Part shown: piece by piece, positions 863 to 20,559 of the stretch
Layout of the letters: every line of letters starts with the position of its first letter
Numbering within the stretch: position 1 is the first letter of the stretch
Origin: an uncultured Prevotellaceae bacterium
GTDB taxonomy: Bacteria > Bacteroidota > Bacteroidia > Bacteroidales > Bacteroidaceae
Direction: 5' to 3'
Assembly: GCA_900318115.1 (NCBI GenBank)
Contig: ONJJ01000032.1
Span: forward strand, 1 to 39,768
Length of the DNA stretch: 39,768 nucleotides
Notes under the pieces: model-generated
Database searches by the model: none
The model's input: the letters and a program-made list of their open reading frames with translations, nothing else
What the model was told of the DNA's origin: nothing
Program-made: the position numbers and the translations under genes

Positions 863-870
863 TACTTTTG
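863..870 (+). promoter_or_regulatory. Bacteroidota-type -7 box (TACTTTTG)
   Basis: TACTTTTG matches the TAnnTTTG -7 consensus of the Bacteroidota primary sigma factor and ends 3 nt before the first hairpin of the downstream structured RNA. A clear -33 TTTG is not obvious. The position suggests that transcription starts at the RNA element. Confidence 0.6.
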
Positions 871-873: not shown

Positions 874-1056
874 CGTGTTTCAGATGAGACACGACATTTT
901 TTGCTCAACTTTCCGTGAACGAACTACCACCTCGATACCGGGAGAAACGAGCAATCTTAATATCCAAGGAGTGTACGCTCTACAGCGTAGACTTCACCAT
1001 TGGATATTAAGGGCTGTGGTAGGCCTGTTCACGGAAATGGTGGGTCTGCGCTGTTT
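874..1056 (+). ncRNA. Structured RNA element E1 (long interrupted hairpin plus pseudoknot), leader of the repeat-lipoprotein gene
   Basis: It opens with a small hairpin, CGTGTTTC/GAGACACG (874-881 with 886-893). The main helix has stem A TTCCGTGAAC 911-920 with GTTCACGGAA 1027-1036 (10 bp), internal loop GAA (921-923) opposite GCCT (1023-1026), stem B CTACCAC 924-930 with GTGGTAG 1016-1022, a side hairpin CTCG/CGAG (931-934 with 948-951), and stem C CTTAATATCCAA 956-967 with TTGGATATTAAG 1000-1011 (12 bp). A further pairing, AGCGTAGAC 984-992 with GTCTGCGCT 1044-1052, is helped by CACCA 995-999 with TGGTG 1038-1042; it crosses the main helix and is followed by GTTTCTGTT, so it resembles a terminator. 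Elements at 17160 and 17555 share the loops and the topology. It may belong to a known Bacteroidales RNA family, which I cannot check here. Function unknown. Confidence 0.7.
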
Positions 1057-1131
1057 CTGTTCTCTAGAATGTTAGTGCTGACTTCCATAGGGATGAATGA
1101 AGTAAAGTATTAACATAAAAAGTAAAGAACT

Positions 1132-3684
1132 ATGAGTAAAGTATTTCATTTCAAGAACATGCTACCATCATTGATGTTAGCACTGATGAGTGTCGCTCTT
1201 TTTTCATGCAGCGGTGATGACGATGAGAAACTTGATGATGGCAGCAGCAACACGACAGACGTTGCCGTGACGAGTAACTTGTCTAAACTGGGTATTACTT
1301 ACGCTCACATCGATGGTTATGTAAACCTTAATCTGATTACGTCGACTTATACCAGCCAACAGGTGGGTATTGAGTTATCTATGAACGAGGATTTCGACAA
1401 TCCGAAACGAGCAGTCTCAAAAGGATTGGAGGGAAACAAACTAACTGTAGTCATAGACACTTTAAGCGCCCAGACGAAATATTTCTATCGTACATTCGTA
1501 AAAGTAAACGACTTAAACTATTACGGAGAGAAGCGCTCTTTTACTACAAAGGATTTCTCAAACATTACTTCGACGGGTAGTGCCTCTGATTTAACCTTTA
1601 CATCAGCCACTATCAAATGCAGTGGTGATGCAAGTTCTATCGACAAAGAAAACAACTATGTCATAGGCGTTGCATATTCCACATCAAAGACTCGGCTTCA
1701 TCCAGACAGTGCCTACATAGGCTATGACCCCTACTATGGGTATTATTCAAGAGGCTTTAATGTAGTTGTGAGTCCTCTTGACAGCATCATAAAAAACAAG
1801 TCATTCAAGAATACAATCTCTCGCTTACAGACAGGAACGACTTATTATTATTGCTCGTTCACACGCGCAGGAAAGAAATATAAGTTAGGAGAGATTAAGA
1901 GTTTCGCCACGAAAGCATTATCAGATGCCCAGCTATTAACTGGTGATGCCACAGATATAACCTTTACTTCTGCAACGGTAAGAAATACCTCTACTATAGC
2001 CAGTATGTACCCGAAAGGGACAAGCATCCAATATGGCATCAGGTATGGAGTATCACAAGATGCTTTGTATGAAACAGCCTATGCCACATCCCTAGAAGGG
2101 GAAGCATTTACCGTACAACTTCGCAATCTTGTAGCAGGCAAAACTTACTATTATTGTGCTTATGTTAGTGTAGATGGGGTATCTTTAACAGGAAGCACCA
2201 AAAGCTTTACCACGAAGTCAGGCAATTCATATCTTACAACAGAAGATGCAACTGACATCACATTAACGTCTGCCACATTGAAAGGTAAGACGACACTGTC
2301 TACTCTTTATGGAAATAACGAATCCTCCATCCGATATACTATCCGTTATTCGAGAAATAGTAGCAACATTAATGACCAATATGGATATAATTATGAAACT
2401 GCCAATCCTCAAAAGAATGGGAATGACTTGACCGCCTCTCTTACAAACCTTCAAATGAACACAACTTATTATTATTGTGTTGTTGCCTATGTGGATGGTT
2501 ATTATGTATTCGGTGACGTGAAGAATTTTACGACCAAATCTGGTACAGATTATCTTACAACGGGAAATGCATCAGACATTACTTTGACTTCTGCTACACT
2601 ATCGGGAACAACCACATTGTCTTCTATTTATCCAAGCAATACGTCTATCCAGTATTCTATCAGATACGGAACATCAAGTACTAATTTGAATTCTACAATC
2701 AGCAACGTTTCACTAAATGGGAATAACATTTCTGGAACTGTGTCGAATCTGAAAAGCGGAACAACTTACTATTATCGTGTTTCTGCTTATGTTGGTGGAA
2801 CGACTATATATGGCGAAACGATGAACTTTACAACCAAATCGGGTGCTGATTATTTGTCAACAGGGGCAGCATCAAACATTACGATGACCTCGGCAACAGT
2901 AAAAGGAACGACTACACTGTCTTCTGCTTATCCCAGTAACACAACCATTCAATATAGAATAGTGTATGGCACGTCAAGTTCCTCTCTAACATCATCTTCA
3001 AGTTCTTCATTGGCAACGCCAGAATTGAGTGGAACAGCACTTACTGCTGAGTTGTCAGACCTCGTTATAGCAACAACATATTATTATTGCATAAGAGTAT
3101 CGGTGAATGGAAGCTACTATTATAGCGACACAAATAGTTTCACAACAAAGGACATACAACAAACAGGTTATGTCGACTTGGGAGTGAGTTGTAAATGGGC
3201 GACATGTAACCTGGGAGCGACAGTTCCAGAAGACTTCGGTGACTATTTTGCATGGGGAGAAACGGAAACCCGTACATTCTTCTATTCATCAAATTATAGC
3301 TATCAAAGATCTCAAGTTCCTGATGATATAAGTGGAACAGATTATGATGCAGCACGCAAAAAATTAGGCGAACCTTGGAGAATGCCAACAAGAACAGAAT
3401 TCCAAGAAATACTTAATAGTTGTTTCTGGAAAGAAGTAACGTATAAGAATGTGAGAGGCTATTTAGTAACAGGAAAGAATGGAAATGCAATATTTCTTCC
3501 TAAAACAGGGTACAAATCAGGCAATCGAACAAATGACGGGTATGCCAATTGGACGGGCTCTGGCTACTATCGCCCTGAAACCTCTTATAATTGGGAAAAA
3601 AATGAAAACTATTATTGGTCTGGTACTACCATTTCATCAACAAAAGACTACTATTCTGGAATGACTATTCGTCCTGTAAGATAA
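1132..3684 (+). CDS. Surface lipoprotein with six fibronectin-III-like repeats and a C-terminal FISUMP domain
   Basis: An 850-residue exported lipoprotein: the N-terminus MSKVFHFKNM leads into a hydrophobic stretch ending in the lipobox LFSC (Cys26), followed by SGDDDE, an acidic +2 region typical of surface-exposed Bacteroidales lipoproteins. Residues from about 43 to 665 hold six related units of about 95-120 residues. From the second unit on, each begins with a variant of ASDITLTSATLKG and ends with TTYYYC...FTTK; they look like fibronectin-III-type beta sandwiches. Residues from about 673 to 850 match the Fibrobacter succinogenes major paralogous (FISUMP) domain, seen as GYVDLGVSCKWATCNLGA, WRMPTRTEFQEI and YYWSGT. 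Ligand and role are unknown; adhesion or glycan binding is a guess. The gene is AT-richer than the core genes at 4834-15749 and sits behind RNA element E1, which suggests accessory DNA. Confidence 0.85.
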   Translation: MSKVFHFKNMLPSLMLALMSVALFSCSGDDDEKLDDGSSNTTDVAVTSNLSKLGITYAHIDGYVNLNLITSTYTSQQVGIELSMNEDFDNPKRAVSKGLEGNKLTVVIDTLSAQTKYFYRTFVKVNDLNYYGEKRSFTTKDFSNITSTGSASDLTFTSATIKCSGDASSIDKENNYVIGVAYSTSKTRLHPDSAYIGYDPYYGYYSRGFNVVVSPLDSIIKNKSFKNTISRLQTGTTYYYCSFTRAGKKYKLGEIKSFATKALSDAQLLTGDATDITFTSATVRNTSTIASMYPKGTSIQYGIRYGVSQDALYETAYATSLEGEAFTVQLRNLVAGKTYYYCAYVSVDGVSLTGSTKSFTTKSGNSYLTTEDATDITLTSATLKGKTTLSTLYGNNESSIRYTIRYSRNSSNINDQYGYNYETANPQKNGNDLTASLTNLQMNTTYYYCVVAYVDGYYVFGDVKNFTTKSGTDYLTTGNASDITLTSATLSGTTTLSSIYPSNTSIQYSIRYGTSSTNLNSTISNVSLNGNNISGTVSNLKSGTTYYYRVSAYVGGTTIYGETMNFTTKSGADYLSTGAASNITMTSATVKGTTTLSSAYPSNTTIQYRIVYGTSSSSLTSSSSSSLATPELSGTALTAELSDLVIATTYYYCIRVSVNGSYYYSDTNSFTTKDIQQTGYVDLGVSCKWATCNLGATVPEDFGDYFAWGETETRTFFYSSNYSYQRSQVPDDISGTDYDAARKKLGEPWRMPTRTEFQEILNSCFWKEVTYKNVRGYLVTGKNGNAIFLPKTGYKSGNRTNDGYANWTGSGYYRPETSYNWEKNENYYWSGTTISSTKDYYSGMTIRPVR

Positions 3685-3704
3685 GAAACAAAACCGTCAA
3701 ACAT

Positions 3705-3968
3705 ATGAACGATTCAAATTTTATTCTCAAAGACTTTGACCTTGACAATCTCTCAGGTCAAGCTCAAACAACATGCACCAGTTCTTCTAACGCAGCAAGT
3801 GAACTTGAAGCTATCCAACAAGCTTGCCGTAGTCAGTCTCAACAAATGCCTGAAGGCTACAAAGTAGATTATGATGGTCGTGAGTTCAGCACCGCAAAAA
3901 GACAAAGTGCTTCTGGCGAGAAAGTCACCGATATCACCTTTGGTTTTGAATTAAAAACAGATGAATAA
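3705..3968 (+). CDS. Small hypothetical protein (87 aa)
   Basis: An ORF starting at ATG 3705, 20 bp after the lipoprotein stop codon, encodes 87 residues beginning MNDSNFILKDFDLDNLSG. The sequence is polar, with a Thr/Ser-rich segment around the first Cys (TTCTSSSN), a second Cys in QQACRSQSQQ, and a C-terminal part that looks like two beta strands (VDYDGREF, VTDITFGFEL). No signal peptide or transmembrane segment is visible and I do not recognise a family. The tight spacing suggests co-transcription with the lipoprotein gene. A reading frame 30 codons longer overlaps the lipoprotein gene and looks like an artefact. Real-gene status is moderately likely on composition. Confidence 0.5.
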   Translation: MNDSNFILKDFDLDNLSGQAQTTCTSSSNAASELEAIQQACRSQSQQMPEGYKVDYDGREFSTAKRQSASGEKVTDITFGFELKTDE

Positions 3969-3989
3969 AGCTTGGCCTTTAAGATAATG

Positions 3990-4070
3990 AAGCCGATAGC
4001 TGCAAGAGCTGGGTGGAAGTGGGTTGGAATCGGCTTCGCATCCCAGTGTCACAGGGAGAAGGATGTGACA
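3990..4070 (+). terminator. Two consecutive hairpins after the small ORF, possible terminator region
   Basis: AAGCCGAT (3990-3997) pairs with ATCGGCTT (4029-4036). TGTCACA (4047-4053) pairs with TGTGACA (4064-4070), followed by an AT-rich stretch with no clean T-run. CTGGG (4009-4013), inside the first loop, can also pair with CCCAG (4042-4046) outside it, which would give a small H-type pseudoknot. A terminator role is likely only from position, downstream of the 1132-3968 gene pair. Confidence 0.4.
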
Positions 4071-4310
4071 TAATTAGATAATTATAAAAAACCATAATTC
4101 CTATGGTAAACAAATTATTTAGTTAGGTTGGGCATGAGATTGCCCAACTTAGCAATAGGCTGAGAGGGCTTGACCTCTTGAAACTCCTTGGGTTGATAAA
4201 TGCAGTCGTTGATTTGCTGGCATTGATTGTGAAATACACATCATGCGGCAATCTCACTACGATTGATTTCCTATAGGGAGTGGAAGACATTCGTACTATC
4301 GTACTGTATG
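4071..4310. other. Intergenic stretch with a perfect 8-bp inverted repeat
   Basis: No supportable gene. GTTGGGCA (4127-4134) pairs with TGCCCAAC (4141-4148) around a 6-nt loop. A plus-strand reading without a start codon, from 4127 to 4276, gives a hydrophobic peptide (LLKLLGLINAVVDLLALIVK) that may be a decayed gene end. Confidence 0.4.
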
Positions 4311-4763
4311 TCACCAAAAAGAGAGGAAATGTTTAACCCTCCGAGGGTAGCTGTAAATGCTACCCTTTTCCATGTAATACAGAAGCCAAATATGGCAAAC
4401 TATGCTGACATCCTCGGCCTCTTGTATCCTCTGCCAGTCAGTATCGCATACTGTTACAGTCAATTTCAATTTTGTGGGCGCATCTTCCATGACTTGGGCT
4501 ATGTGCTTATTGATTGTGTCAACCTTGTCACTGATGGTATTCACGGCAGCACCGAGCACTCCTTCTTCACGCTGGGTTTGGCGGATAGAAGATTCCAAGG
4601 ACAGCTTGGCATTGATGACGGCAGTTGTTGCCTTGTCAATGTCGGTACTCAACTGTTTGATTTCGTTCGATGAAGTGCTGCACGGCGTTGCACCGCACAC
4701 ACCTTGCACATCGATGTCCTGCTGGAAGGTGAGCTGCTTCTGCCGCATCATAAACGATATCAC
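4311..4763 (-). CDS. Hypothetical coiled-coil protein, possibly decayed at its C-terminus
   Basis: Encodes about 146-150 residues; the start is either GTG at 4763 or ATG at 4751. The middle (IKQLSTDIDKATTAVINAKL...VNTISDKVDTINKHIAQVM) is heptad-like and polar, suggesting a coiled coil, followed by KLKLTVTVCDTDWQRIQEAEDV. The last 30 or so residues (aromatic and Tyr-rich, ending KHFLSFW) do not fit the style of the rest and may reflect a frameshift. The protein resembles small accessory proteins of mobile elements, but I recognise no family. It lies 70 bp downstream of the PAP2 gene on the same strand. Confidence 0.4.
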   Translation of the reverse strand: MISFMMRQKQLTFQQDIDVQGVCGATPCSTSSNEIKQLSTDIDKATTAVINAKLSLESSIRQTQREEGVLGAAVNTISDKVDTINKHIAQVMEDAPTKLKLTVTVCDTDWQRIQEAEDVSIVCHIWLLYYMEKGSIYSYPRRVKHFLSFW

Positions 4764-4833
4764 TTCACGACCACTTTCCGCGTCGTGCCGTCGCTCATGC
4801 GGATGATGTTAACGCTGCGATGAGGTGCTGCAA

Positions 4834-5451
4834 TCAGAACTTCAGGATGATGCCGACGAAGCCGAGGAGGATGCCGAGGAAGGTGCCGGCGAGGACTTGC
4901 CAGAGGGTGTGCTGGCGCAGGAGCATGCGGCTGCTGCCGACGAGGCCGGCGATGATGATGCAGAGCGAGAGCCACCACACGGGATTGAAGTTGAAGAGGA
5001 GGCTGAAGGCTACGACGGCACCGATGATGCCTCCGGCACCTGCGGAGTGCACGGAGACCTTCCACCAGATGTTGATGAGCAGGCAGGCGGCCTGTATCAT
5101 CAGTGAGCTGACGAGGATGCCGCCCATGTAGAAAGGCAGGTGGAAGCGGGCAAGGAAGTGGAGGGTGAAGGCGTAGAAGAGCAGAAAGACGAGGTAGGGG
5201 AAGGAACGATGCTCGCGCAGGCGGAGGTGATGGAGCTTCAGGCCGTTGGTCTGACGCCAGATACGGATGGTAAGCCGGGGCAGCAGCAGGGTTCCCATGA
5301 GCACGATGATCATGATGAGTGCCTTGAAGCTCAAGGGCAGCAGGCTGAGGTAGGTGAACAGGAACAATGCCAGAAAGCCCACCAGCGGGAAGTACTGGGG
5401 GCGGAAGATACTGGAGAGGGCGCGTGCGCCCCAGAGGAGTGCTTTGTTCAT
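4834..5451 (-). CDS. PAP2-family membrane phosphatase-like protein
   Basis: A 205-residue integral membrane protein with several hydrophobic segments (FPLVGFLALFLFTYLSLLPL, SFKALIMIIVLMGTLLL, LVFLLFYAFTLHFL, and two more near the C-terminus). Two of the three PAP2 (acid phosphatase/lipid phosphatase) signatures are visible: HSAGAGG for the second motif, and SRMLLRQHTLWQVLAG for the third, with the expected Arg and His. The first motif (KxxxxxxRP) is absent, so catalytic activity is uncertain; divergent Bacteroidetes PAP2 proteins often look like this. The likely substrate class is a lipid-linked phosphate or diphosphate at the inner membrane. It is 15 bp downstream of rpoN and probably in the same transcript. 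Confidence 0.8.
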   Translation of the reverse strand: MNKALLWGARALSSIFRPQYFPLVGFLALFLFTYLSLLPLSFKALIMIIVLMGTLLLPRLTIRIWRQTNGLKLHHLRLREHRSFPYLVFLLFYAFTLHFLARFHLPFYMGGILVSSLMIQAACLLINIWWKVSVHSAGAGGIIGAVVAFSLLFNFNPVWWLSLCIIIAGLVGSSRMLLRQHTLWQVLAGTFLGILLGFVGIILKF

Positions 5452-5466
5452 GATGTTGCCATCTAC

Positions 5467-6954
5467 TTATTTTCTTAGTCTTGCTACGGGGATGTTTAGT
5501 TGTTCGCGATACTTCGAGACGGTGCGGCGCGCTACGTCGTAGCCGCGCTGCTGGAGTTCGCGTGCGATGGCGTCGTCGGAGAGTGGGGCGTTGTGGTCCT
5601 CGTTGTCCACGATTTCCTGCACGGCAGCCTGGATGTTGCGCACGGAGACTTCGTCGCCGCCCTGCAGACGTGCTGCGGAGGTGAAGAACCAGCGCAGGGG
5701 ATAGATGCCGAAGGGTGTCTGCACCCACTTGCTGTTGCTCACGCGCGAGACGGTGGAGAGGTGCAGTCCGGTGCGCTTGGCGACGTCCTCGAGCGTCATG
5801 GGAGCCAGCAGGGTCTCGTCGCCGCTCTCGAAGAAGGGTCGCTGCATCTTCATGATGGCTTGCATGGTGGTGCTGAGGGTCTGGCGGCGCTGGCGCAGGG
5901 CTTCGATGAAGCCTTGTGCCTTGTCCACGCGGTCGCGCAGGTAGGTGACGCCGTCGCGCTCGGAGCGCGAGAGCTCTTTGGGGTCACGACCCTCGTAGGT
6001 GTTGAGGAAGTCGATGTCGTCCTGGCTGACGTGGAGGGGTGGCAGGTGGCCGTTGTTCAGTGTGAGGGTCAGCCGTCCTTCGGCGTCGGTATCGACGTAG
6101 AAGTCGGGTGTTATCTGCTGGATGTTGCGCCCGATGGCTTCGCCCATGGAGCTGCCGGGTCGGGGATTCAGTCGGTGTACCTCTCGCTTGAGGCGGCTGA
6201 CGTCGGCATCGCTCAGGCGCATGGTGCGCTGGATGCGGTCCCAGTGCTTGAGCATCAGGTCGTCGAAGTGGTTCTTCAGCAGCGAGAGCAGTTGTTGCTT
6301 GACGGGAGATTGGCTGTCGGGGGCGTGCTGGACCTGCAGGATGAGGCATTCCTGGAGGCTGCGGGCTCCTATGCCTGCGGGCTCGAAGTTCTGCAGGATG
6401 CCGAGGATGTGCTCCAGTTCTTCGGGTGAGGTGGGGATGTTGTGATAGACTTCCAGTTCATCCTGCAGCTGCTGGAGTGAGACGTGCAGGAGTCCGTCGT
6501 CATCGAGTGAACCGATGAGGTAACGCAGGATCTCTTCTTCGTGGGGTGTGAGGTGGAAGAATCCTATTTGTTCTTCCAGTTGGTCGTAGAAGGACTGTGT
6601 CTCCTGGGTATAGGATTCGCCTACGTTGGAGCGGTCCGAGGGCATGTTGTCGGGGATGTCGTCGGGGCTGCTGTAGTCGGCAGCGTAGTCGGCGGCGGCA
6701 TACTCCGAGGAGTCTGCGTAGTCCGGGGAGTCGGAGTTCTCGTCGTAGTTCTCGTCCACGGTAGCGTCCGGGCCGTCGGCATAGTCTGAGGTCTCTGAGC
6801 GGTCGGCCTCCAGCGAGACATTTTCCTTCAGCTCACGGTCCACACGCTCGTAGAGGGCTTCTGCGGGCATTTCCACCAGCTCGCTGACGAGCAGCTGCTG
6901 GGGATTCAGGACTTGGACCTGAGACTGGAGTTGTACGTTGACTTGGGAAGACAC
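5467..6954 (-). CDS. rpoN: RNA polymerase sigma-54 factor
   Basis: The 495-residue sigma-54 directs RNA polymerase to -24/-12 promoters and needs an AAA+ enhancer-binding activator. The N-terminal activator-interacting region is Gln/Leu-rich (QLQSQVQVLNPQQLLVSELV), then comes a long acidic Asp/Tyr/Ser-rich linker at about residues 45-120, then the core-binding region, a helix-turn-helix (LEDVAKRTGLHLSTVSRVSN) and the diagnostic RpoN box ARRTVSKYRE at residues 475-484. Length is normal. It lies between the porin gene and the PAP2 gene on the same strand. No sigma-54 activator gene occurs in the window. Confidence 0.97.
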   Translation of the reverse strand: MSSQVNVQLQSQVQVLNPQQLLVSELVEMPAEALYERVDRELKENVSLEADRSETSDYADGPDATVDENYDENSDSPDYADSSEYAAADYAADYSSPDDIPDNMPSDRSNVGESYTQETQSFYDQLEEQIGFFHLTPHEEEILRYLIGSLDDDGLLHVSLQQLQDELEVYHNIPTSPEELEHILGILQNFEPAGIGARSLQECLILQVQHAPDSQSPVKQQLLSLLKNHFDDLMLKHWDRIQRTMRLSDADVSRLKREVHRLNPRPGSSMGEAIGRNIQQITPDFYVDTDAEGRLTLTLNNGHLPPLHVSQDDIDFLNTYEGRDPKELSRSERDGVTYLRDRVDKAQGFIEALRQRRQTLSTTMQAIMKMQRPFFESGDETLLAPMTLEDVAKRTGLHLSTVSRVSNSKWVQTPFGIYPLRWFFTSAARLQGGDEVSVRNIQAAVQEIVDNEDHNAPLSDDAIARELQQRGYDVARRTVSKYREQLNIPVARLRK

Positions 6955-6969
6955 GGGGGGGAATTTTAT

Positions 6970-7034
6970 AGATTTGTGAAATATCGAAATTACGAAATTA
7001 CGAAATAATGAATTTATTGATTTACTGATTTGTC
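6970..7034. repeat. Short degenerate tandem repeat (about 8-bp units) in the rpoN-porin spacer
   Basis: The spacer is largely made of octamers of the type GAAATATC, GAAATTAC, GAAATTAC, GAAATAAT. Similar short-period arrays fill three other spacers in the window (11191, 29122 and 33941). Confidence 0.6.
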
Positions 7035-8091
7035 AGAATCGCCAGTAGACTTGGATGTCGGCGGTGTGGTAGCGGGTGTCGGCGGCGTTCTTGTTGACGT
7101 GGAACGCGTAGTTGGCCTGAAACATGAGGTTGGTGAAGAGTGAGTGTTGCACCGAGAGTCCGTACTGGCTGTGGGCTCCGTCCCAGCTCTTGCGGTTTCG
7201 TAGGACGTCGTAGTGGGCGTAGATGCGTGTGCGGTAGAAGGATGGTGAGCCGAGTGTGACGTACCAGGCATCGGCTTTCGCTCCTGCGTTGTCCACGGCA
7301 AATTCCGTGCGCAGGTTCCAGTCCTTGTTGTAGTTCAGCCCCACGCTGTAGCGTCTGCGCTCTATGGTCTCGTTGTCGGCGTTGACGTAGTTGCCCGTCC
7401 ATCCGAATACTCCGATCTGCAGTTCACTCAGGGGTGAGATGATGAGTCCTCCGATGAGGTCCTTGCGCGAGTTCTTGTCGGAGAAGTTGATGCCCTGTCC
7501 GGTGTAGATGCCTGCCTGGTAGTGGATCCATCGGTGGCCGTCGGTGCCTCCTGGCAGGAGGTCGCCCTGGAACTGGAGTCCGAAGTCGCGTCCGTTTGAG
7601 GAGTGTTCGCCGGTGAGGTCATTGAAGCCCGCCAGTTTGTCGGCCAGCTGGGAGTAGGCTCCGCCTCCGATGAGCCAGGGGTGCATGGGGTTCTCGAAGG
7701 TGAAGCAGCGCTTGAACTGTCCGAACTTCACCCGGAACTCCTTCCAGTGCTGCCACTCTGCCCAGGCATCGACGATGCGCGGGCCATTGACGCCGCTGGT
7801 GTTGCCGTTGACCTGCATCTGCAGCTTGAAGGCGAAGTCGCCCAAGCGTGTGTCCACGTACAGTCGCACGAGTCGCAGCCCCAAGTCTGCCTGGGCTTTG
7901 GCGTCGTCGCTGGTGGTGCCGTTGACCTTGGCGATGACGTATCCGCCGAAGCTGGTGTTCTGCTTCAGCTGCTCGACAAAGGTGCCGTGCCCCTTCGGTT
8001 CCTGATCAGGGAGGGGGGTAGTCTCCTCTGCAGAGAGGGATGATGCTGCGAGCAGGAAGCTGAGGAGGAGAAGGCTGTTCTTTTTACGCAT
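7033..8091 (-). CDS. Outer-membrane porin (phosphate-selective porin O/P-like)
   Basis: A 352-residue outer-membrane protein. Residues 1-21 (MRKKNSLLLLSFLLAASSLS) are a signal peptide. The rest alternates polar and aromatic residues in amphipathic strands (GDFAFKLQMQVNGNTSG, FRVKFGQFKRCFTFENP, YAHYDVLRNRK) and ends in a C-terminal aromatic strand, YWRF, as expected for a beta-barrel. FGQFKRCFTFENPMHP is typical of the OprO/OprP-like porin family of Bacteroidetes. The transported solute cannot be told; the phosphate label is a family name. The start is 14 bp downstream of the lgt stop. Confidence 0.82.
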   Translation of the reverse strand: MRKKNSLLLLSFLLAASSLSAEETTPLPDQEPKGHGTFVEQLKQNTSFGGYVIAKVNGTTSDDAKAQADLGLRLVRLYVDTRLGDFAFKLQMQVNGNTSGVNGPRIVDAWAEWQHWKEFRVKFGQFKRCFTFENPMHPWLIGGGAYSQLADKLAGFNDLTGEHSSNGRDFGLQFQGDLLPGGTDGHRWIHYQAGIYTGQGINFSDKNSRKDLIGGLIISPLSELQIGVFGWTGNYVNADNETIERRRYSVGLNYNKDWNLRTEFAVDNAGAKADAWYVTLGSPSFYRTRIYAHYDVLRNRKSWDGAHSQYGLSVQHSLFTNLMFQANYAFHVNKNAADTRYHTADIQVYWRF

Positions 8092-8105
8092 TATAGCTGT
8101 TGTTT

Positions 8106-9005: not shown

Positions 9006-9030
9006 ATTGGTTTTATTTACTGCCTACCTA

Positions 9031-9066
9031 TTCCCCTCCCCCTGGGGGAGGTCGGGAAGGGGCTAT
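9031..9066. repeat. REP-like palindromic element, copy 2, overlapping the ychF stop codon
   Basis: CCTCCCCC T GGGGGAGG (9035-9051) is followed by the tail TCGGGAAGGGGCT. The last bases of the element overlap the TAG stop of ychF. It is in inverted orientation to copy 1, about 70 bp away. The hairpin could also act as an mRNA stabiliser or attenuator between ychF and lgt. Confidence 0.75.
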
Positions 9067-10166: not shown

Positions 10167-10194
10167 ACTTTATGTGTTTATTCGTTTACGGGGT

Positions 10195-10203
10195 GCAAAG
10201 TTA
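10195..10203 (-). promoter_or_regulatory. -7 box (TAACTTTGC) of ychF
   Basis: On the minus strand TAACTTTGC matches TAnnTTTG and lies 29 bp upstream of the ychF ATG, giving a leader of about 20-25 nt. It probably drives the run ending at the PAP2 gene. Confidence 0.7.
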
Positions 10204-10278
10204 AGCATAAAAACTGAGATAGTGGCTCTCGTGGCGGCTTTTAATACTTTTTAGACCTTCTTTGGCGTTGATTTGTGG

Positions 10279-11160: not shown

Positions 11161-11190
11161 ATAAGTGAAGTTAGTCGGTTTTGTTAATTG

Positions 11191-11270
11191 TCGAGTTCTC
11201 GAAATGCCGAAATATCGAAATATCGGAACATCGAGATATCGAGATTCCGAGATGTCGAGATTCTGAATGG
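11191..11270. repeat. Degenerate 8-bp tandem repeat upstream of the Mfa2-like gene
   Basis: Consecutive octamers CGAAATAT, CGAAATAT, CGGAACAT, CGAGATAT, CGAGATTC, CGAGATGT, CGAGATTC occupy the spacer between the M16 stop and the lipoprotein start. Slippage could change the distance between the lipoprotein gene and any upstream signal. Confidence 0.75.
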
Positions 11271-11334
11271 AAGAAGAGTGGGAAGTGGAAGCCTGTTCTT
11301 GCTTCGCACTTCCCACTCGTTACTTCTTCAGGGA

Positions 11335-14226
11335 TTAGTTTGTGGCGCTCTTGGCGGCCTCCATCGATTCTGCATCAGGCAGCATGACCACGGTGACGCG
11401 GTTGTTGTTGTCGCTGATGGTGCGTGCCAGCTGCTTGACGCTGGATGGCGTGATGGCGCGCACGATTTCCTCGTAGTTCTCGGCGGAGTCGTAGCCTCGG
11501 TAGGCGATGCCCTCGATGCGGTTCATCCACCAGCGGTTCTCGCGCTGGTTCTGGGTGTAGGTCTTCAGGAGGTATTCCTTGGCCTTGTTGACGCTTTCCT
11601 CGCTGACGCCGTTGGCTGCCACGCGGTCGAAGACGTCGAGGACGATCTTCATGCAGGTGTCGGTCATCTCAGGCTTCAGGGGGAACACGGCCTGGAGGAC
11701 GTAGCGCGGACGGTCGTCGCTGCCACGGGTGATGAAGCCGGCGCACTGGGTGCTGTAGGCAGCGCCGAGTTCCTCGCGGATCTTCTTGAGGTAAACCTCG
11801 CCGAGGCAGGTGCTGAGCACATCGACCAGCACTTCGTTGCGCACGGTCATCTCGATGTCACCCGTCCAGGCATAGACGGCGAAGCTCTGCGGCGTCTGCA
11901 TCTTCTTCTCGAAGATGTTGTCGTGCACGCCGGTGGCGAAGTTCAGGTGGGCGTCCACGGGGGTGTCGTCGCGCTTCTTCATCTTCGGCAGGGTGGCCAG
12001 ATACTGCTGGATGTGGAATTTAATCAGCGGCTCGTCGATGTTGCCGACGAAGAGGAAGGTGAAGTCCGAGGCGTCGCCGAAGCGGTCGGCGTACATCTCC
12101 TGGATGCGGTCGTAGTTGATGAGGTCCACCTCAGACTCCTTCAGCGGAGTGATGCGGGGATTGTGGTTGTACAACGTGGCCTGGATGCTGTCGCTGATGC
12201 TGGACATGGGGTTCAGTGCCTTGTTGCGCAGGGCTTCCTTCATCTGTTCCTTGTAGGCGCCGAAGGCGTCCATATCCTTCCCGCGGGGCTGGAAATGGAG
12301 GTAGATGAGTTCGAACAGCGTGGCGATGTCCTTGCGGGAGCAGTGACCGCTGAGGCTCTCGGTGCGGAGGTCAGCGCTGAAGCTCACGCCCACGTTGCGG
12401 CCGGCCAGTGCCTTGGAGAGCTCCGTCTTGGTGAAGTCGCCCAGCTTGCTGAGGTCCATCACGTCGTCCCATGCTCCGAGGTCTATGCGCTCGCTGTCGG
12501 GATAGCGTCCCAGTCCGCCCTTGCTCCATGCGGTCATCAGGATCTCGTCGTCCTTGTAGTCCGTGGGTTTCAGGATGACGCGCACGCCGTTGGAGAGTGT
12601 CAGGATCTTGGATCCGCAGGGACCTTCCTGCTCCTTGACGATCTCGCCGGGTTTCTTCAGCTGTTCCATGGGCACCAGGGGACCGGTCTTCACGTTGTCC
12701 ACCCATGCCTCGAGCTGCATGCCCTGTGCGGCGTGGATGGCGTCGAGCAGCTGTTGCTCGGTGGGGATTTCCAGTCCTTCCTTCTCAGGATTCAGGGCGA
12801 GCACGACGAGGTTGGAGTCGGTGCGCGAGATGACTTCTTTCAGGTACTCGTTGTATCCTTCCACGGGCAGCTGGGGCAGCATCTGGCTGACGAGCTGGTA
12901 CTCCACTTCGATGCCGGGGATGGCTTCGTTGTCGAGGAACGAGCGGTAGTATTCGTGGGCGAAGTTGATGCTCTTCTGCTTGTCGCGGTTGTTGTAGAGC
13001 TGTTCCATGCCGGAGACGATGTCCATGACCATGCGTCCGGCCTCGCCCTCCGTAATGCCGTATTGCTGAGCGCGATAGACCTCAGCCATCACAGCCTGCA
13101 CGGCTTCCTCCACGCGACCTTCCTTCGGAGCCACCTGGATATTCACGGATTCCGTGACCTTGCTGGAGAGCAGGAAGTCGTCGTCGTCGATGCTGGCTCC
13201 CTTGAAGGGGCACTCGGGCTTCAGCGACAGCTCGCCCAGGCGTTGGTTCAGCGCGCGCAGGGCCACAGCCTTGATGCGGTTCTCGAGGTAGGTGCCGAGT
13301 CGGTTGTTCAGGCTGTCAGGCGTGGCGGGGTGCTTCATGGAAATCATGACCATCTGGGTGGTGACTTCCGGATCCTTGTCGCTGACCACGATGGCCTCGT
13401 CGTTGTCCGGCACGGAGTAGTACTCGCGCTTGGCCACGGGCTGGCTGACGGTGATGGGCGAGAAGAGCTTCTTGATCTTGCCTTCCACCTGGTCCACGTC
13501 GATGTCGCCAACGACGATGATGCCCTGCAAGTCAGGACGATACCACTTATGATAGTAGGCGCGCAGCGTGTCGTAGGGGCACTCATCGACCACGGACATC
13601 AGACCGATGGGGAAGCGGCGGCCGAAGCGGCCGGGCATCAGCTTCTCCAGGTTGCGGACCAGGATGCGGGTGAAGCCCGTGTTGCGCATGCGCCATTCGC
13701 CGTGGATGACTCCGCGTTCCTTGTCGATTTCCTTGCCGTCCAGCGTCAGGTCGTGGCTCCAGTCGTGCAGGATGAGCAGGCAGGAGTCGATGGCTCCCTC
13801 GCGCGCAGGTACATTATCTATATTGTAAACCGTTTCTTCCACGCTGGTGAAGGCGTTCAGCTGTTCGCCGAACTTCACGCCGATGCTCTCGAGGTACTCG
13901 ATGAGCGTGCTGTCGGGGAAGTGCGTGGTGCCGTTGAAGCACATGTGCTCCAGGAAGTGTGCCAGACCGCGCTGGCTCTCTTCCTCCTGGATGGAACCCA
14001 CCTTCTGGGCGATGTAGAAGAAGGCCTGATCCTTCGGTTCCTCGTTGTGGCGGATGTAGTACGTCAGTCCGTTGTCGAGGCGGCCGATGCGCACTTTCTG
14101 GTCCACGGGCAGCGGCTGCATCAACATCTGCCGCTGCATCTCTTCCATCTGCTCGGGCGTCTGGGCAGCAGCGGGAGCGGCGGCCAGTGCCAGCAGCGAA
14201 AGAGCAAAAAGTTTCTTGAGTTTCAT
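11335..14226 (-). CDS. M16-family zinc metallopeptidase (two-domain, exported)
   Basis: A 963-residue peptidase with signal peptide MKLKKLFALSLLALAAAPAAA, so it probably acts in the periplasm. The inverted zinc motif HxxEH is HFLEH at residues 90-94, with the third ligand expected in the downstream helix IDKERGVIHGEWRM. The sequence has two M16 halves: the active N-terminal half and a C-terminal half beginning around VRVILKPTDYKDDEIL that lacks HxxEH, as in pitrilysin-like clam-shell enzymes. Substrates are probably peptides trapped in the chamber; the physiological one is unknown. It lies between the CotH-kinase gene (68 bp upstream) and the Mfa2-like gene. Confidence 0.93.
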   Translation of the reverse strand: MKLKKLFALSLLALAAAPAAAQTPEQMEEMQRQMLMQPLPVDQKVRIGRLDNGLTYYIRHNEEPKDQAFFYIAQKVGSIQEEESQRGLAHFLEHMCFNGTTHFPDSTLIEYLESIGVKFGEQLNAFTSVEETVYNIDNVPAREGAIDSCLLILHDWSHDLTLDGKEIDKERGVIHGEWRMRNTGFTRILVRNLEKLMPGRFGRRFPIGLMSVVDECPYDTLRAYYHKWYRPDLQGIIVVGDIDVDQVEGKIKKLFSPITVSQPVAKREYYSVPDNDEAIVVSDKDPEVTTQMVMISMKHPATPDSLNNRLGTYLENRIKAVALRALNQRLGELSLKPECPFKGASIDDDDFLLSSKVTESVNIQVAPKEGRVEEAVQAVMAEVYRAQQYGITEGEAGRMVMDIVSGMEQLYNNRDKQKSINFAHEYYRSFLDNEAIPGIEVEYQLVSQMLPQLPVEGYNEYLKEVISRTDSNLVVLALNPEKEGLEIPTEQQLLDAIHAAQGMQLEAWVDNVKTGPLVPMEQLKKPGEIVKEQEGPCGSKILTLSNGVRVILKPTDYKDDEILMTAWSKGGLGRYPDSERIDLGAWDDVMDLSKLGDFTKTELSKALAGRNVGVSFSADLRTESLSGHCSRKDIATLFELIYLHFQPRGKDMDAFGAYKEQMKEALRNKALNPMSSISDSIQATLYNHNPRITPLKESEVDLINYDRIQEMYADRFGDASDFTFLFVGNIDEPLIKFHIQQYLATLPKMKKRDDTPVDAHLNFATGVHDNIFEKKMQTPQSFAVYAWTGDIEMTVRNEVLVDVLSTCLGEVYLKKIREELGAAYSTQCAGFITRGSDDRPRYVLQAVFPLKPEMTDTCMKIVLDVFDRVAANGVSEESVNKAKEYLLKTYTQNQRENRWWMNRIEGIAYRGYDSAENYEEIVRAITPSSVKQLARTISDNNNRVTVVMLPDAESMEAAKSATN

Positions 14227-14294
14227 AATTGCTGTTTTGTTATTTTGAGATAGAGGTTATTGTTTTCTTCTGTCGATTAATAGCGGACGGGCAA

Positions 14295-15749
14295 TTAATG
14301 TGACCCTGGCTCGGGGATATTCTCGATGAGGTTCCCCAGGAATTGTGCCCTGTTCTGCAGCCACAGGTGCATCTGCAGCAGCTCCTTGCGGAAGTTGAAG
14401 CCGCGCACGGGCCAGCGCTGGGCCTCGCGGTCCATGGCACCCTGGCGCAGGCCTTCGGCATAGCGCTCCACCTCCTGCCAGGGACGGCTGACGATGCTAT
14501 CGGAGTACTGGCGCCACGTCTGCTTGTACAGCTCCACGAACTCCTGGGTGCCGAAGAGGTCGGTGAAGAACTGAGGCACGTCCGGGTAGTTGCCGTTGCG
14601 GCGGACGGGATTCGTGCCCATCACCGTCTCCTTGTAGTTCGAGAAGTAGCCGTGGCCGCGGTACATGTCAGACCAGTCGAAGTCGTAGCCCGCATCGAAG
14701 TCCCACAGCGGACCCATCACCCACTTGCCGTCGCCGTCCTTGTGGAGGAACACGCTGCGCGGAGCATCGATCTCCACGTTGTACACCAGCTCCTGGATGA
14801 TCAGGTAGCGCGCCAGACTCTCCATGTCCAGCAGCTGCGACGCCCACTGGTAGTCCTGCCACATGATGGCCATCTCCAGCTCGGCAAAGACGTCGCGGAT
14901 GCTGTCGCGCAGCTCGGGCGTCAGCAGCTCCTCGTCGGGGTACTTCACGGCAGCCGGCATCCTGTAGCCGCTGGTCCAGAAACTGCGCTCCGATGCCGAA
15001 CCGCCGCGTGGACCGTCGTCCACGTCCAGCGAAAGCAGGATGCCGCGGTCGTCGCTGACCGCCACGCGGTTGTCGCCCTGCTGCACCTGCTCCGTCAGCT
15101 GATAGACACCCAGGTACTCGCCGTCCATCAGCAGTTCCACGTAGCGCGTGTGGTTCGTGTAGGGCATACCCATCATGCGTCCCAGCTCGAAGACGAAGGT
15201 GTTCATCATGTCCGTCAGGTCGCGGTAGTTCGCCAGCAGCACCCAGCTCTTGGCCTTGTCCATGCCCAGCACCTTCTGCTTCTGCTCGAACTTGATGCGG
15301 TAGGGCTTCTTGTCGTACCACTCCCAGGTGCTGTTGCCCCGGCCTCGGATGCCCGCGCGCTGCCAGCGGCAGGCGTAGCTGTCGCCGCCGTTGATGCCCA
15401 CGTAGCAGGGCACGTACTCCTCCTTGGAGTGCACGCCCTGGCCGTCCTCTGTATAGACGAAGAGTTGGAAAACCTGGTATTTATTCTTCTCCTCGGCTTC
15501 GAACACCTGCTCGAAGTTGATACTGTCCACATCACTGATGCTCAGCGGCACGGCGAATCCGTCGTGCATCTCTGCCCGCAGCACCTTCTGGGCGTCGGTG
15601 ACGCGCATCTCCTCGATGCTGTCGACCATCACGGGCAATGTCCACGGAGTGTCGAATGCCCGATGGTGCACCCGCATCCATTCCTGCGCCACCGCTGTAG
15701 TGCCCGAGAGCAGTGCCAGCAGGGCACCTGTCACTAATCGCTTGTTCAT
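14295..15749 (-). CDS. CotH kinase family protein (exported)
   Basis: A 484-residue protein with a signal peptide (MNKRLVTGALLALLSGTTAVAQ). Residues from about 130 on match the CotH kinase fold: RGRGNSTWEWYDKKPYRIKF, MDKAKSWVLLANYRDLTDMM, GEYLGVYQLTEQVQQGDNRV and GPLWDFDAGYDFDW, the last corresponding to the DFD-type metal-binding segment. CotH proteins are atypical protein kinases first studied in Bacillus spore coats; Bacteroidota homologues are secreted and their substrates are unknown. A promoter box lies about 25 bp upstream, making it the first gene of the run CotH-M16-Mfa2-like. Confidence 0.88.
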   Translation of the reverse strand: MNKRLVTGALLALLSGTTAVAQEWMRVHHRAFDTPWTLPVMVDSIEEMRVTDAQKVLRAEMHDGFAVPLSISDVDSINFEQVFEAEEKNKYQVFQLFVYTEDGQGVHSKEEYVPCYVGINGGDSYACRWQRAGIRGRGNSTWEWYDKKPYRIKFEQKQKVLGMDKAKSWVLLANYRDLTDMMNTFVFELGRMMGMPYTNHTRYVELLMDGEYLGVYQLTEQVQQGDNRVAVSDDRGILLSLDVDDGPRGGSASERSFWTSGYRMPAAVKYPDEELLTPELRDSIRDVFAELEMAIMWQDYQWASQLLDMESLARYLIIQELVYNVEIDAPRSVFLHKDGDGKWVMGPLWDFDAGYDFDWSDMYRGHGYFSNYKETVMGTNPVRRNGNYPDVPQFFTDLFGTQEFVELYKQTWRQYSDSIVSRPWQEVERYAEGLRQGAMDREAQRWPVRGFNFRKELLQMHLWLQNRAQFLGNLIENIPEPGSH

Positions 15750-15773
15750 TTATAGATAAACACTTTTGCGGGT

Positions 15774-15782
15774 GCAAATTTA
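15774..15782 (-). promoter_or_regulatory. -7 box (TAAATTTGC) of the CotH-kinase gene
   Basis: On the minus strand TAAATTTGC matches TAnnTTTG, 25 bp upstream of the ATG at 15749. Confidence 0.65.
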
Positions 15783-15876
15783 CAAATAATAGTTGATTCC
15801 GTGCGCGAAACCCACTATTTTTCAGCCTCCAACCCGAAAAATAACCCAAATTCCACGACTAATTCTGCCAAACAGC

Positions 15877-15950
15877 ACCTGAACCGCCATCAAATAGCAT
15901 CATCTTGTCCATCTAAAGCCCCTGCACCGCCATCTCGAAGTCTCATCTTA
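15877..15950. repeat. Two-copy 43-bp direct repeat
   Basis: CCTGAACCGCCATC (from 15878) and CCTGCACCGCCATC (from 15921), each followed about 10 bp later by CATCTT, give a degenerate tandem duplication. Confidence 0.5.
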
Positions 15951-16130
15951 TCCTCCCTTCCGCCCGGAATCGTTCACTGAAAATGTCTCGCGCGCATGAA
16001 AATAACGATTTTTACTACACAACTACACAAAATATTTTATATATTGCTGATATTCAATAGTTAGACGTTTTTAGAATAATGTAGTTTACTGCATAATAGG
16101 TGCAAAAATGGGCTTTATTTGTGTACTTTT

Positions 16131-16370
16131 GCCGTTTATATGTGTACTTTTATGCCCTATCTATGTACTTTTATGGCACTACCACATCATTTCTTGGCAT
16201 TCCTTTTTATGTTTTTGCCGTTTATCTGTGTACTTTTGTGCCCTATCCATGTACTTTTATGGCACTACCACATCATTTCTTGGCATTCCTTTTTATGTTT
16301 TGACGTTTATTCGTGTACCGTAGTGTCCTATAGTGTACTTTTATGGCACCACCACATCATTCTCTGGATA
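16131..16370 (+). repeat. 86-bp tandem repeat, about 2.8 copies
   Basis: Units start at 16131, 16217 and 16302. The first two are nearly identical, including TGTACTTTTATGGCACTACC and ACATCATTTCTTGGCATTCC; the third is diverged and truncated. Each unit contains GTGTACTTTT-like words. The overlapping ORFs (MxYFxGTTTSFLGIPFYV) are in all three frames and have no independent coding signal. Confidence 0.85.
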
Positions 16371-16455
16371 TTTTGTCCAGTTCCCTCCATTCTACTAATC
16401 CTTACGACGAACTAAAGAAACAGAAAGCCCCCTAATTTTATCATTAAATCCACAA

Positions 16456-16560
16456 TTTCGCACTTAGTAAGCCTATTTTTGCACTCATTCGACCCTAATT
16501 TTGTGCTAATATAGCCCTTCTTTGTGCAAGTATAGCCTGTTTTTGATGTAGTATTAGCCA
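16456..16560 (+). repeat. 21-bp tandem repeat, five degenerate units
   Basis: Units begin at 16456, 16477, 16498, 16519 and 16540, with examples TTTTGCACTCATTCGACCCT, ATTTTGTGCTAATATAGCCC and TCTTTGTGCAAGTATAGCCT. Each carries a TTTTG/TTTGTGC core and an AGCC tail spaced two helical turns apart. Confidence 0.7.
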
Positions 16561-16577
16561 AAACTACACAAAACTAA

Positions 16578-16831
16578 TTTCGTCAAAGCGCACACAATCA
16601 GCAATATACGAAAAATTCCGTGTAGTTGTGTACCAACGAACCCTACTTTTTTTCTGCAAAAACGGCATTTTCGCTTTGACGACCCTTGGGGCGTCAAAGC
16701 ATACATCAGGCTGAAAGCCGAAAAATATCCAGCAGTTTCCTTTGACGACCCAAGGGACGTCAAAGCACACATCAGGACGCATAGCAAGAAAGATCCGTAT
16801 CTTCTGCTTGACGACCCAAGGGGCGTCAAAG
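16578..16831. repeat. 66-bp tandem repeat carrying a CGTCAAAG palindrome
   Basis: The palindromes CTTTGACG...CGTCAAAG are at 16674-16699, 16740-16765 and 16807-16831, with inner sequence ACCCTTGGGG, ACCCAAGGGA or ACCCAAGGGG. The 40-41 bp between them are also related (A[TC]ACATCAGG just after each palindrome), and a half-unit precedes them at 16578. Spacing of 66-67 bp equals 22 codons, so the minus strand reads as a 22-residue repeat (FDAPWVVK type) without an independent start or signal. Confidence 0.8.
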
Positions 16832-16860
16832 GAAAGCTCCCCACGTTGGCACTGCTCCAG

Positions 16861-16927
16861 CCCGCCGCATCCTGCATCATCTCTCGTCGCATCCTGCATC
16901 ATCCCCCGCCGCATCCAGCATCACCCC
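16861..16927 (+). repeat. 22-bp tandem repeat, three units
   Basis: CGCCGCATCCTGCATCATC, CGTCGCATCCTGCATCATC and CGCCGCATCCAGCATCACC follow each other at about 22-bp spacing. Confidence 0.75.
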
Positions 16928-17148
16928 TAATAATTGGAGAGTTCGTCTCAAGACGTAACCCTCCCTTTTTCCCATGTCCTCATACTCTCCACTTCATACT
17001 CCATCACGAAGAATGAAAGGGTGCTTGGAGGATAGACGGTCTATAATGCCGAAGTGAAATCACCTCCTTTCCGAAACAAAAACACACCCTTTCCTCTCCT
17101 CCATTGCATTTTTTCCCGTTTTTCTTTCTTCAACTCCCCCCTTTTTAC

Positions 17149-17156
17149 TACTTTTG
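17149..17156 (+). promoter_or_regulatory. -7 box (TACTTTTG) upstream of RNA element E2
   Basis: The same octamer, TACTTTTG, as in front of element E1 (863-870). It is the nearest strong promoter candidate upstream of the restriction-modification operon, about 570 bp before the first methyltransferase. Confidence 0.6.
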
Positions 17157-17159
17157 TCC

Positions 17160-17471
17160 CGTTGAAGCCGTGAAGTGAGGCCTTCGGGGACACAGATCGA
17201 GCTGAGACCTACATATTGAAAGGCGTTACTGACGCTTTGTTTTTGGCTGTTCCGAAATTACCACATCCGAATTGCTAATCAAAGACAAAGACGAGTGACT
17301 GCCACGGAGGTGGTATATTCACGTCCGTAGTGTGCAGCGAGGGTACGTGTACCCTCACGCACACTTTACGGGTGTACTATATTCTCCAAAGTGGATGCTC
17401 TCTGATTGTTCATTAGCATGGCTGTGGTAAGCCACGGAAGCGAACGATAGAGGTCAGCATCCACTTTTTTT
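17160..17471 (+). ncRNA. Structured RNA element E2 with terminator-like pseudoknot stem
   Basis: Stem A TTCCG 17250-17254 with CGGAA 17435-17439; loop AAA opposite GCCA; stem B TTACCAC 17258-17264 with GTGGTAA 17424-17430, preceded by GGCT; stem C TGCTAAT 17273-17279 with ATTAGCA 17412-17418. Inside the apical loop is a well-formed arm: CCGTA/TACGG (17325-17329 with 17367-17371), GTGTGC/GCACAC (17330-17335 with 17359-17364) and GAGGGTAC/GTACCCTC (17339-17346 with 17349-17356). A crossing stem joins GTGGATGCT (17391-17399) and ATTGTTC (17405-17411) to GAACGAT (17442-17448) and AGCATCCAC (17456-17464), followed by seven T. Layout and loop sequences match E1 and E3. The 5' part holds a small GCGT/ACGC hairpin near 17223-17235. 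Confidence 0.7.
17391..17471 (+). terminator. Intrinsic terminator-like hairpin with large structured loop (part of E2)
   Basis: GTGGATGCT pairs with AGCATCCAC and is followed immediately by TTTTTTT (17465-17471). The loop contains a second helix (ATTGTTC/GAACGAT) and the small hairpin GTGG-TAAG-CCAC. That last hairpin uses the 3' arm of stem B, so full terminator folding and the A-B-C hairpin cannot both form as drawn unless as a pseudoknot. Confidence 0.65.
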
Positions 17472-17554
17472 ATGTTGATAGTGATAACCAATAAACGAAT
17501 TAACAATAACAAAAAAGAAAAGATTAAAGAGTTCGATTTCATCCTTGATTTGAC

Positions 17555-17702
17555 TGATTAACCAGAATTAGGACCTCAGGAAACACGTCAGTCGGACAAG
17601 CAACTGGATGTTTGCGCTCATTGGGGCGTGGACATAAAGATTGTTGTCTGATGTGGGCTGTCCTAAGCCTTGGTTAAACACCTCTCTTCCACGCCCCCTT
17701 TT
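17555..17702 (+). ncRNA. Structured RNA element E3, immediately upstream of the methyltransferase operon
   Basis: Stem A TTAACCA 17558-17564 with TGGTTAA 17671-17677; loop GAA 17565-17567 opposite GCCT 17667-17670; stem B TTAGGAC 17568-17574 with GTCCTAA 17660-17666, preceded by GGGCT (17655-17659); stem C GACAA-g-CAA 17595-17603 with TTGTTGTC 17641-17648. A crossing stem, GGGGCGTGGA 17623-17632 with TCCACGCCCC 17688-17697, precedes CTTTT. Loop sequences are identical to E1 although all helices differ, which is covariation. A short reading frame of 29 codons (17472-17561) ends with a TAA that overlaps stem A; it has no visible ribosome binding site. Confidence 0.7.
17623..17702 (+). terminator. 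Terminator-like stem with 55-nt loop (part of E3)
   Basis: A perfect 10-bp GC-rich stem (GGGGCGTGGA with TCCACGCCCC) is followed by C and four T, 27 bp before the methyltransferase start. The loop contains the 3' arms of stems A, B and C. If it terminates, expression of the operon would depend on antitermination or read-through. Confidence 0.55.
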
Positions 17703-17712
17703 CAAAATAACG

Positions 17713-20557: not shown

Positions 20558-20559
20558 TT

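Follow-up and report, generated by a model that had tools for sequence, protein, structure and literature searches.

Restriction-modification genes can be controlled by C proteins or by antisense RNA. Among structured RNAs, the crcB and pfl motifs combine a conserved fold upstream of genes with a terminator that overlaps the motif, as set out in parts of PMC2864571, and parts of PMC9481103 deal with riboswitches arranged in tandem. The window analyzed here is the whole 39,768-nucleotide contig ONJJ01000032.1 (C71) of an uncultured Prevotellaceae bacterium, whose assembly (GCA_900318115.1) comprises 3.33 Mb in 74 contigs. Three elements in this window, E1, E2, and E3, belong to a family of conserved structured RNAs, with covariation beyond phylogeny in helices A, B, and C. 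Sequence comparison makes it probable that they are the leaders of a new Bacteroidales cis-regulatory RNA family that acts by transcription attenuation. In its predicted working, the family resembles an attenuator or a riboswitch-type leader, and no membership of a named class is claimed. It would share the competition between fold and terminator with the crcB and pfl motifs, as far as the parts of that source go, but it has no Rfam 15 match at the elements tested, and the genes that it precedes encode a variety of exported and defence proteins, not one pathway. Like the tandem riboswitches of the second source, to the extent covered there, E2 and E3 are two leaders of the same family in front of one gene, but they are copies of different subtypes and have no assigned ligand.

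A descriptor of the shared core (AA, a helix B of 6-8 pairs, NTC, GGCT, the second strand of B, and GCC) matched the window at exactly three places, E1, E2, and E3, and had no match on the opposite strand. The first-pass annotation had placed three elements with these stems at these positions, which the sequence and the descriptor search confirmed. Folding z-scores were -6.2 for E1, -4.9 for E2, and -2.1 for E3, and equally stable folds were found for 0/200, 0/200, and 6/200 shuffled sequences, respectively. These z-scores, the further copies, and the widespread covarying homologues place the three elements beyond chance. A search of the window for tRNA or tmRNA found none.

A blast search with E1 revealed a fourth copy in the same genome (E4, C38:121180-121326), and another contig begins with a partial fifth match (C15:1-106). 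Cropped cores were used for model building, because direct alignment of the three full elements by MAFFT misplaced helices. The covariance model R1, built from four cropped cores, matched 45/139 genomes of the same genus (cut-off E <= 0.1), and the type I covariance model R2 (158 positions, 12 type I copies, cut-off E <= 0.01) matched 132/399 genomes of the family in 16/30 genera, the own genome being counted in both. The highest number of R2 copies in a genome of the family was at least 7; seven candidates were scored per genome, so copy numbers are lower bounds. The earlier view that E1-E3 form one structured-RNA family with compensated helices was thus carried by covariance models and Infernal searches that found homologues with significant covariation across genus and family.

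Covariation was analyzed in an alignment of 101 R2 matches; 100 rows (E3 dropped) served for the covariation, partner-swap, box and open reading frame (ORF), triplet, and energy counts, and all 101 rows for the paired-cell, double-change, and D (GGC/GCC) counts. The order of parts in type I elements was U5 - A5 - RAA - B5 - MTC - U3 - C5 - H5 - H3 - C3 - D5 - B3 - D3 - A3 - T3 - U's. The null distribution was obtained by evolving columns on a tree built by FastTree, with 40 simulated alignments and 11,935 pairs, using a script of our own rather than R-scape. Twenty-two pairs were significant at E < 0.05, 20 of them from helices A, B, C, and H and two being cross pairs inside B; by helix, significance was reached by 6/7 pairs in A, 5/7 in B, 8/8 in C, and 1/5 in H, all of which belonged to the fitted structure, which favours them. 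Within this structure, 97.2% of cells were paired, compared with 24% to 49% in slid controls, and 924 cells carried double changes, compared with 255 in shuffles.

The positions of the parts, by element, are as follows.

863..870 (+): promoter -7 box TACTTTTG of E1, read from the sequence
874..893 (+): 5′ hairpin between the promoter box and E1, from the E1 fold
900..906 (+): E1 strand U5 (TTTGCTC), with its partner U3 at 949-954
910..1037 (+): E1 core, from the fold, the descriptor, and model R2 (117.5 bits)
910-920 / 1027-1037 (+): E1 helix A (A5/A3), with RAA at 921-923
924-930 / 1016-1022 (+): E1 helix B (B5/B3)
956-965 / 1002-1011 (+): E1 helix C (C5/C3)
971-979 / 984-1001 (+): E1 hairpin H (H5, and H3/T5)
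1012-1014 / 1023-1025 (+): E1 hairpin D (D5/D3)
1036..1058 (+): E1 putative terminator arm T3 and U-rich tail, the first two bases overlapping A3
17149..17156 (+): promoter -7 box TACTTTTG of E2
17221..17245 (+): conserved 5′ block AGGCGTTACTGACGCTTTGTTTTTG of the E2 type (type III), its 3′ part being U5 (17235-17245)
17250..17439 (+): E2 core, from the descriptor, the sequence, and the E2-like comparison
17250-17254 / 17435-17439 (+): E2 helix A (A5/A3)
17258-17264 / 17424-17430 (+): E2 helix B (B5/B3)
17272-17279 / 17412-17418 (+): E2 helix C (C5/C3), with U3 at 17280-17290
17388-17411 (+): E2 strand T5, with D5 at 17420-17422 and D3 at 17431-17433 (D3 read from the sequence)
17442..17474 (+): E2 putative terminator arm and U-tract, T3 being 17442-17467
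17541..17558 (+): E3 upstream strand (ATCCTTGAT..GACTGAT), with complementarity to strands C5 and H5 of this element
17558..17677 (+): E3 core, from the fold, the descriptor, and model R1 (55.6 bits, E3 being among the four source cores of R1)
17558-17564 / 17671-17677 (+): E3 helix A (A5/A3)
17568-17574 / 17660-17666 (+): E3 helix B (B5/B3)
17584-17593 / 17646-17655 (+): E3 helix C (C5/C3)
17606-17619 / 17623-17635 (+): E3 hairpin H (H5, and H3/T5)
17656-17658 / 17667-17669 (+): E3 hairpin D (D5/D3)
17688..17727 (+): E3 arm T3 (17688-17698) and a second terminator-like hairpin (17694-17727), the two overlapping

The loops around the helices had been described as constant, which held in part. 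RAA and MTC do stay constant and are, with the base following GGY, the most constant positions outside helices, and B hardly varies at its inner end (AC/GU). GGC and GCC, on the other hand, form a helix and co-vary, changing to GGU...ACC in L033, L052, L054, and several E2-like copies; the best D pair (CG 56, UA 33, UG 10 of 100) ranks 23rd among all pairs. GGC and GCC are, judging from these exchanges, paired with each other as hairpin D; this makes B3 the loop of that hairpin and turns helix B into a predicted pseudoknot. A further candidate helix, W, pairing the outer part of A5 with the B-U junction, beat swapped partners (0/2000) but had no significant pair in the tree-based test, and it remains no more than an idea.

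Function is best indicated by the arm that follows the core. In E1, E2, and E3 alike, the stretch past A3, beyond the boundaries first assigned to the elements, is complementary to the apical strand; this terminator-forming arm, and the GGC-GCC pairing that makes B a pseudoknot, are new relative to the first-pass annotation. The resulting T helix was found to span 17 base pairs in E1 (984-1001 with 1036-1052, duplex energy -24.8 kcal/mol), 23 base pairs in E2 (17388-17411 with 17442-17467, -27.7 kcal/mol), and 10 base pairs in E3 (17623-17632 with 17688-17697). In type I copies, H3 is the partner both of H5, forming hairpin H, and of T3. One column triplet of H5, H3, and T3 reads G-C-G in 70 rows, A-U-A in 15, and A-U-G in eight, and in some copies it changes on all three sides jointly. 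A terminator-like helix and a conserved hairpin hence use one strand (H3 = T5), which is the structural arrangement of an attenuator. Both H and T are conserved on the evidence of the alignment, and they are predicted to be mutually exclusive because strand H3 is common to both. A clear T helix was also recovered by script in 15/17 E2-like elements (in L099 and L323 the longest helix was another one), and three phage contigs showed such a helix on inspection by eye. The helices U, T1, T2, and D lay outside the fitted structure of the model; 92.0% of cells in U, T, and D together were paired, compared with 25-48% in slid controls, and 95 cells carried double changes, compared with 33.9 in shuffles (0/500 shuffles as high).

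The arm also bears on a passive or self-processing role, in which the element would be an mRNA 5′ part such as a stabilizer or a self-cleaving ribozyme, and T its closing helix only. The A/B/C fold is very stable, several pseudoknots, together with a handful of invariant unpaired bases, would suit a ribozyme as well, and the diversity of the genes served fits this explanation. We nevertheless regard it as improbable: a stabilizer would need neither a helix of ~13 pairs followed by U's (at least four U's within 8 nucleotides past T3 in 97/100 type I copies) nor a strand common with another conserved hairpin.

Attenuation would proceed as follows, on a route drawn from sequence analysis of the family, its helices A, B, and C, the shared H3 strand, the spacing of promoter box and gene, and the gene classes. 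RNA polymerase would start just past the TAnnTTTG box, and the pseudoknotted core would be made first, with A, B (its 3′ strand in the loop of the GGC/GCC hairpin D), C, and the apical hairpin H. T3, which is followed by U's, could then pair with H3 to give T, an intrinsic terminator that would act in vivo. H and T would compete for H3 before the polymerase leaves the U-tract, and the winner would decide whether the gene is transcribed. A signal may bind the conserved A/B/D core (RAA, AC, MTC, GGY-GU, RCC) and tip this balance; the most conserved part (A/B/D) is separate from the strands that would switch, an arrangement like that of an aptamer and its expression platform. Strands upstream of the core can pair with the B5-H5 stretch (U in E1 and E2, ATCC..GACTGAT in E3), and with such strands a hairpin enclosing A5 and B5 might arise early. 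In 92 leaders, stems in the 5′ stretch exceeded those in shuffles (mean 6.6 versus 4.7 base pairs). Transcripts ending at A3 gave the A/B/C/H fold in 99/100 copies, and in free folds T was present in E2, and A/B/C in E1 and E3.

Several results weigh against transcription attenuation, or against the membership and pairings on which it draws. In energy models restricted to nested pairs, for which a joint A + B + T state is a pseudoknot and lies outside, the A/B/C/H fold beat T in 100/100 type I copies, with a median margin of 13 kcal/mol, and none of the 100 free folds kept half of the T1 pairs; T would therefore depend on kinetics, on a factor, or on a pseudoknotted state. The partner-swap test, which itself speaks for the pairings (the own-partner score was reached in 0/2000 swaps for each of U, T1, T2, D, and H, and in 1923/2000 and 334/2000 for two negative controls), takes no account of relatedness, and no pair in U, T1, T2, D, or W was significant in the tree-based test on 100 rows. 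T2 alone was 79.5% paired. E2 was matched by neither R1 nor R2; its membership was based on a manual alignment and on the group of E2-like elements, of which R2 weakly matched L072 (E 0.0021) and L099 (E 0.011). In E3, T may instead be an antiterminator, its T3 overlapping the second terminator-like hairpin. The genes served are diverse, unlike those of most metabolite riboswitches, and no candidate for a riboswitch ligand emerged from the lists of downstream genes. The lengths of helices A and C, whose correlation would have hinted that T2 bridges two stacked arms, were uncorrelated (rho 0.04).

The flanks of type I copies bear on how the transcript is used. The TACTTTTG box that had been noted ahead of E1 and E2 is present at 863-870 and 17149-17156, and a TAnnTTTG box was found within 90 nucleotides upstream of 92/100 type I copies, against a mean of 8.2 and a maximum of 14 in shuffles. 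In 99/100, an ORF of 60 or more amino acids began within 350 nucleotides downstream, at a median distance of 68 nucleotides (scored on the same strand only). These data fit an element that would stand between a promoter and the gene it serves, and they can be set against a free-standing trans-acting non-coding RNA of ~190 nucleotides with its own promoter and terminator, the next gene having a promoter of its own. A promoter box, a compact conserved fold, and a U-tailed terminator do occur in the right order for such an RNA, and E2 ends at its own putative terminator ~85 nucleotides before helix A of E3. This explanation is unlikely, however, given that the longest ORF downstream (100 amino acids or more) shared the element's strand in 86 of the 90 evaluable loci and ran the other way in four (10 were not evaluable), whereas upstream ORFs showed no bias (17 same versus 19 opposite). 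Boxes in the gap that separates T3 from the start codon were at chance level (7/99; shuffled mean 3.3, maximum 10), and the second hairpin of E3 (17694-17727) ends one base before the GTG start codon. In many type I loci, the gap between T3 and the start codon (1071-1114 in the window) was seen by eye to hold an inverted repeat, GTTAGTGC...GTATTAAC or GCACTAAC, which could fold as a hairpin close to the start codon or be bound by a protein.

Attenuation coupled to the translation of a leader peptide was considered for the same leaders. Frames of at least eight codons from ATG were present in 57/92 leaders, and ATG/GTG/TTG frames ending inside the leader in 81/92, counts that stand without a chance level. 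The peptides and the positions of their stops varied among copies, and among the 92 leaders no start-stop pattern was conserved, so that a conserved leader peptide was rejected and this form of control is very improbable.

The first-pass annotation had further noted that the elements precede variable accessory genes, and diverse exported-protein and anti-phage genes were indeed found to follow. The gene behind E1 is an example of the first class.

1132..3684 (+): gene after E1, encoding an 850-residue protein with fn3 / Pur_ac_phosph_N domains and, by eye, a lipoprotein-like start

Signal-like N-termini, scored by a crude script rather than SignalP, were found in 78/99 type I products and a lipobox in 24/99; background ORFs, some of them overlapping, gave 55/161 and 10/161, respectively. 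Among non-overlapping ORFs of at least 150 amino acids, signal-like N-termini occurred in 53/67 targets versus 56/155 others (p = 3e-9). A Pfam scan of the first 350 amino acids of 98 of the 99 proteins, one with undetermined residues being omitted, revealed BspA-type LRR_5 in 16 as the most frequent match, WG repeats in four, and OMP_b-brl in three. The subtypes are sorted by gene class, as far as sequence-based assignments go, with mostly exported or surface proteins behind type I and anti-phage genes behind types II and III.

The E3-like (type II) set of 17 comprised 11 elements found by a regular expression, E3 itself, which the expression missed, and five elements that stand behind E2-like elements (L317, L322, L323, L324, L331). 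The longest following ORF encoded a DNA cytosine methyltransferase in 14/17, the exceptions being an AIPR/MzaE-like gene (L041), a MutH-type restriction enzyme (L047), and the PADLOC candidate PDC-M33A (L313). E2-like (type III) elements were gathered by their conserved 5′ block, not by their genes. The block ACATATTNNAAGGCGTTACTGACGC (17221-17245 in the window; at most two mismatches) occurred at 20 places in 18/301 family genomes and 8/30 genera; 14 places had an element, and six were without an intact element or cut short (L316, L326, L332, L333, L334, L335). These 14 and L072, L099, and L309 made up the E2-like set of 17, in which the longest ORF starting within ~1.2 kb encoded a cytosine methyltransferase in 15 copies, with L330 (a TdeIII nuclease) and L321 (a resolvase) as the exceptions. 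Genes with a known or candidate anti-phage role follow 17/17 E3-like and 16/17 E2-like elements, counts that stand without a random-site rate. In two type I loci from another family (L300, L301), the next protein was recognized by eye as similar to an EcoRI-type methylase.

A type II element stands directly behind an E2-like one in 10/17 cases, the window included. The genes behind E2-E3, assigned by domain matches, are the following.

17729..23982 (+): genes after E2-E3
17729-18814 and 18801-19820 (+): two adjacent C5 DNA methyltransferases
up to 23982 (+): a 246-residue protein with no assigned function, an AAA protein (PADLOC PDC-M26A), and a DUF2357/PDDEXK_7 nuclease

The stretch 17729-23982 resembles what we take to be a McrBC-like defence locus. 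The tandem E2-E3 might act as a two-step gate on this restriction-modification locus. As in control by C proteins or antisense RNA, the expression of a methyltransferase/nuclease locus would be timed, but a conserved structured leader RNA would replace the protein or the antisense transcript. The same 5′ block before different genes, clearest before different methyltransferases, could also suggest a DNA-level feature, for example a gene-cassette boundary or a recombination site whose foldback is used as DNA; in L321 (2054-2740), a serine recombinase gene follows the E2-like element in place of a restriction-modification gene. Against this stand G-U pairs, which are common in some helices (one T pair reads C-G in 58 rows and U-G in 40), and a nearly fixed orientation to the box and the gene, and little credence is given to a role as DNA.

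In a draw of 393 genomes from the order, R1 matched eight, counting the own genome; one of these matches, L298, was rejected as spurious (62 nucleotides, with the family's flanking features not seen by eye), and six genomes in four other families were left without it and the own genome. In a draw of 395 genomes from the phylum, R2 matched the own genome only; both draws used stricter Infernal filters. A named carrier is Prevotella sp. ne3005 (copy L081). In IMG/VR, three near-identical stretches among 10 with the pattern GGCTGTGGTAGGCCTG hold a shorter version of the element, and three more pattern scans gave 19 stretches, none with an R1 match. The shorter elements, which have a T-like arm, lie at 6756-6888 (-) in L176, 3285-3416 (+) in L178, and 6026-6158 (-) in L181, and downstream of them are a SNF2-helicase-like gene (PADLOC match) and, by eye, ParB-like and PAPS-reductase-like genes. 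No similar DNA was found in a phage collection searched with one phage element and the E2-E3 stretch, or in a plasmid collection searched with the E2-E3 stretch.

Up to E = 5, Rfam 15 gave six weak matches in the window, none of them at an element position, and for 22 related loci few matches were listed. All the matches listed were below the gathering scores of their families, and by eye none coincided with an element. The suggestion that the elements might be Bacteroidales-1 (RF01693) could be discarded: this model has no match at E1-E3, and its only match in the own genome up to E = 10 is at C38:124976-125164 (+) (L315, 131.6 bits). Bacteroidales-1, with 179 model positions, is likewise structured and of comparable size, and this genome carries it, but as a separate, single locus on another contig. 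That locus lies ~3.6 kb from E4 on C38, probably by coincidence. Candidates exclusive to Prevotella near uvrC are described in PMC8040213. No published description of the family was recognized in titles and the starts of abstracts, or in parts of PMC2864571, PMC8040213, and PMC10994844, supplements being outside this scope.

The family consists of folded RNAs that stand before accessory genes, and one of its two predicted folds resembles a transcription stop signal; it therefore probably helps to switch these genes on or off. More tentatively, it could be an RNA switch class common in Bacteroidaceae that ties anti-phage and surface or secreted genes to one cellular signal; some phages would carry a copy of this switch, and two copies in tandem would form a two-step gate on newly acquired restriction-modification loci. 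A leader RNA that is present in 132/399 sampled genomes of this major gut and rumen family, and has no Rfam 15 match at the tested copies, would be a frequent and uncharacterized one. If the switch is real, it would provide a handle on the timing of restriction-modification and surface variation in these bacteria, and on the signal that they use.

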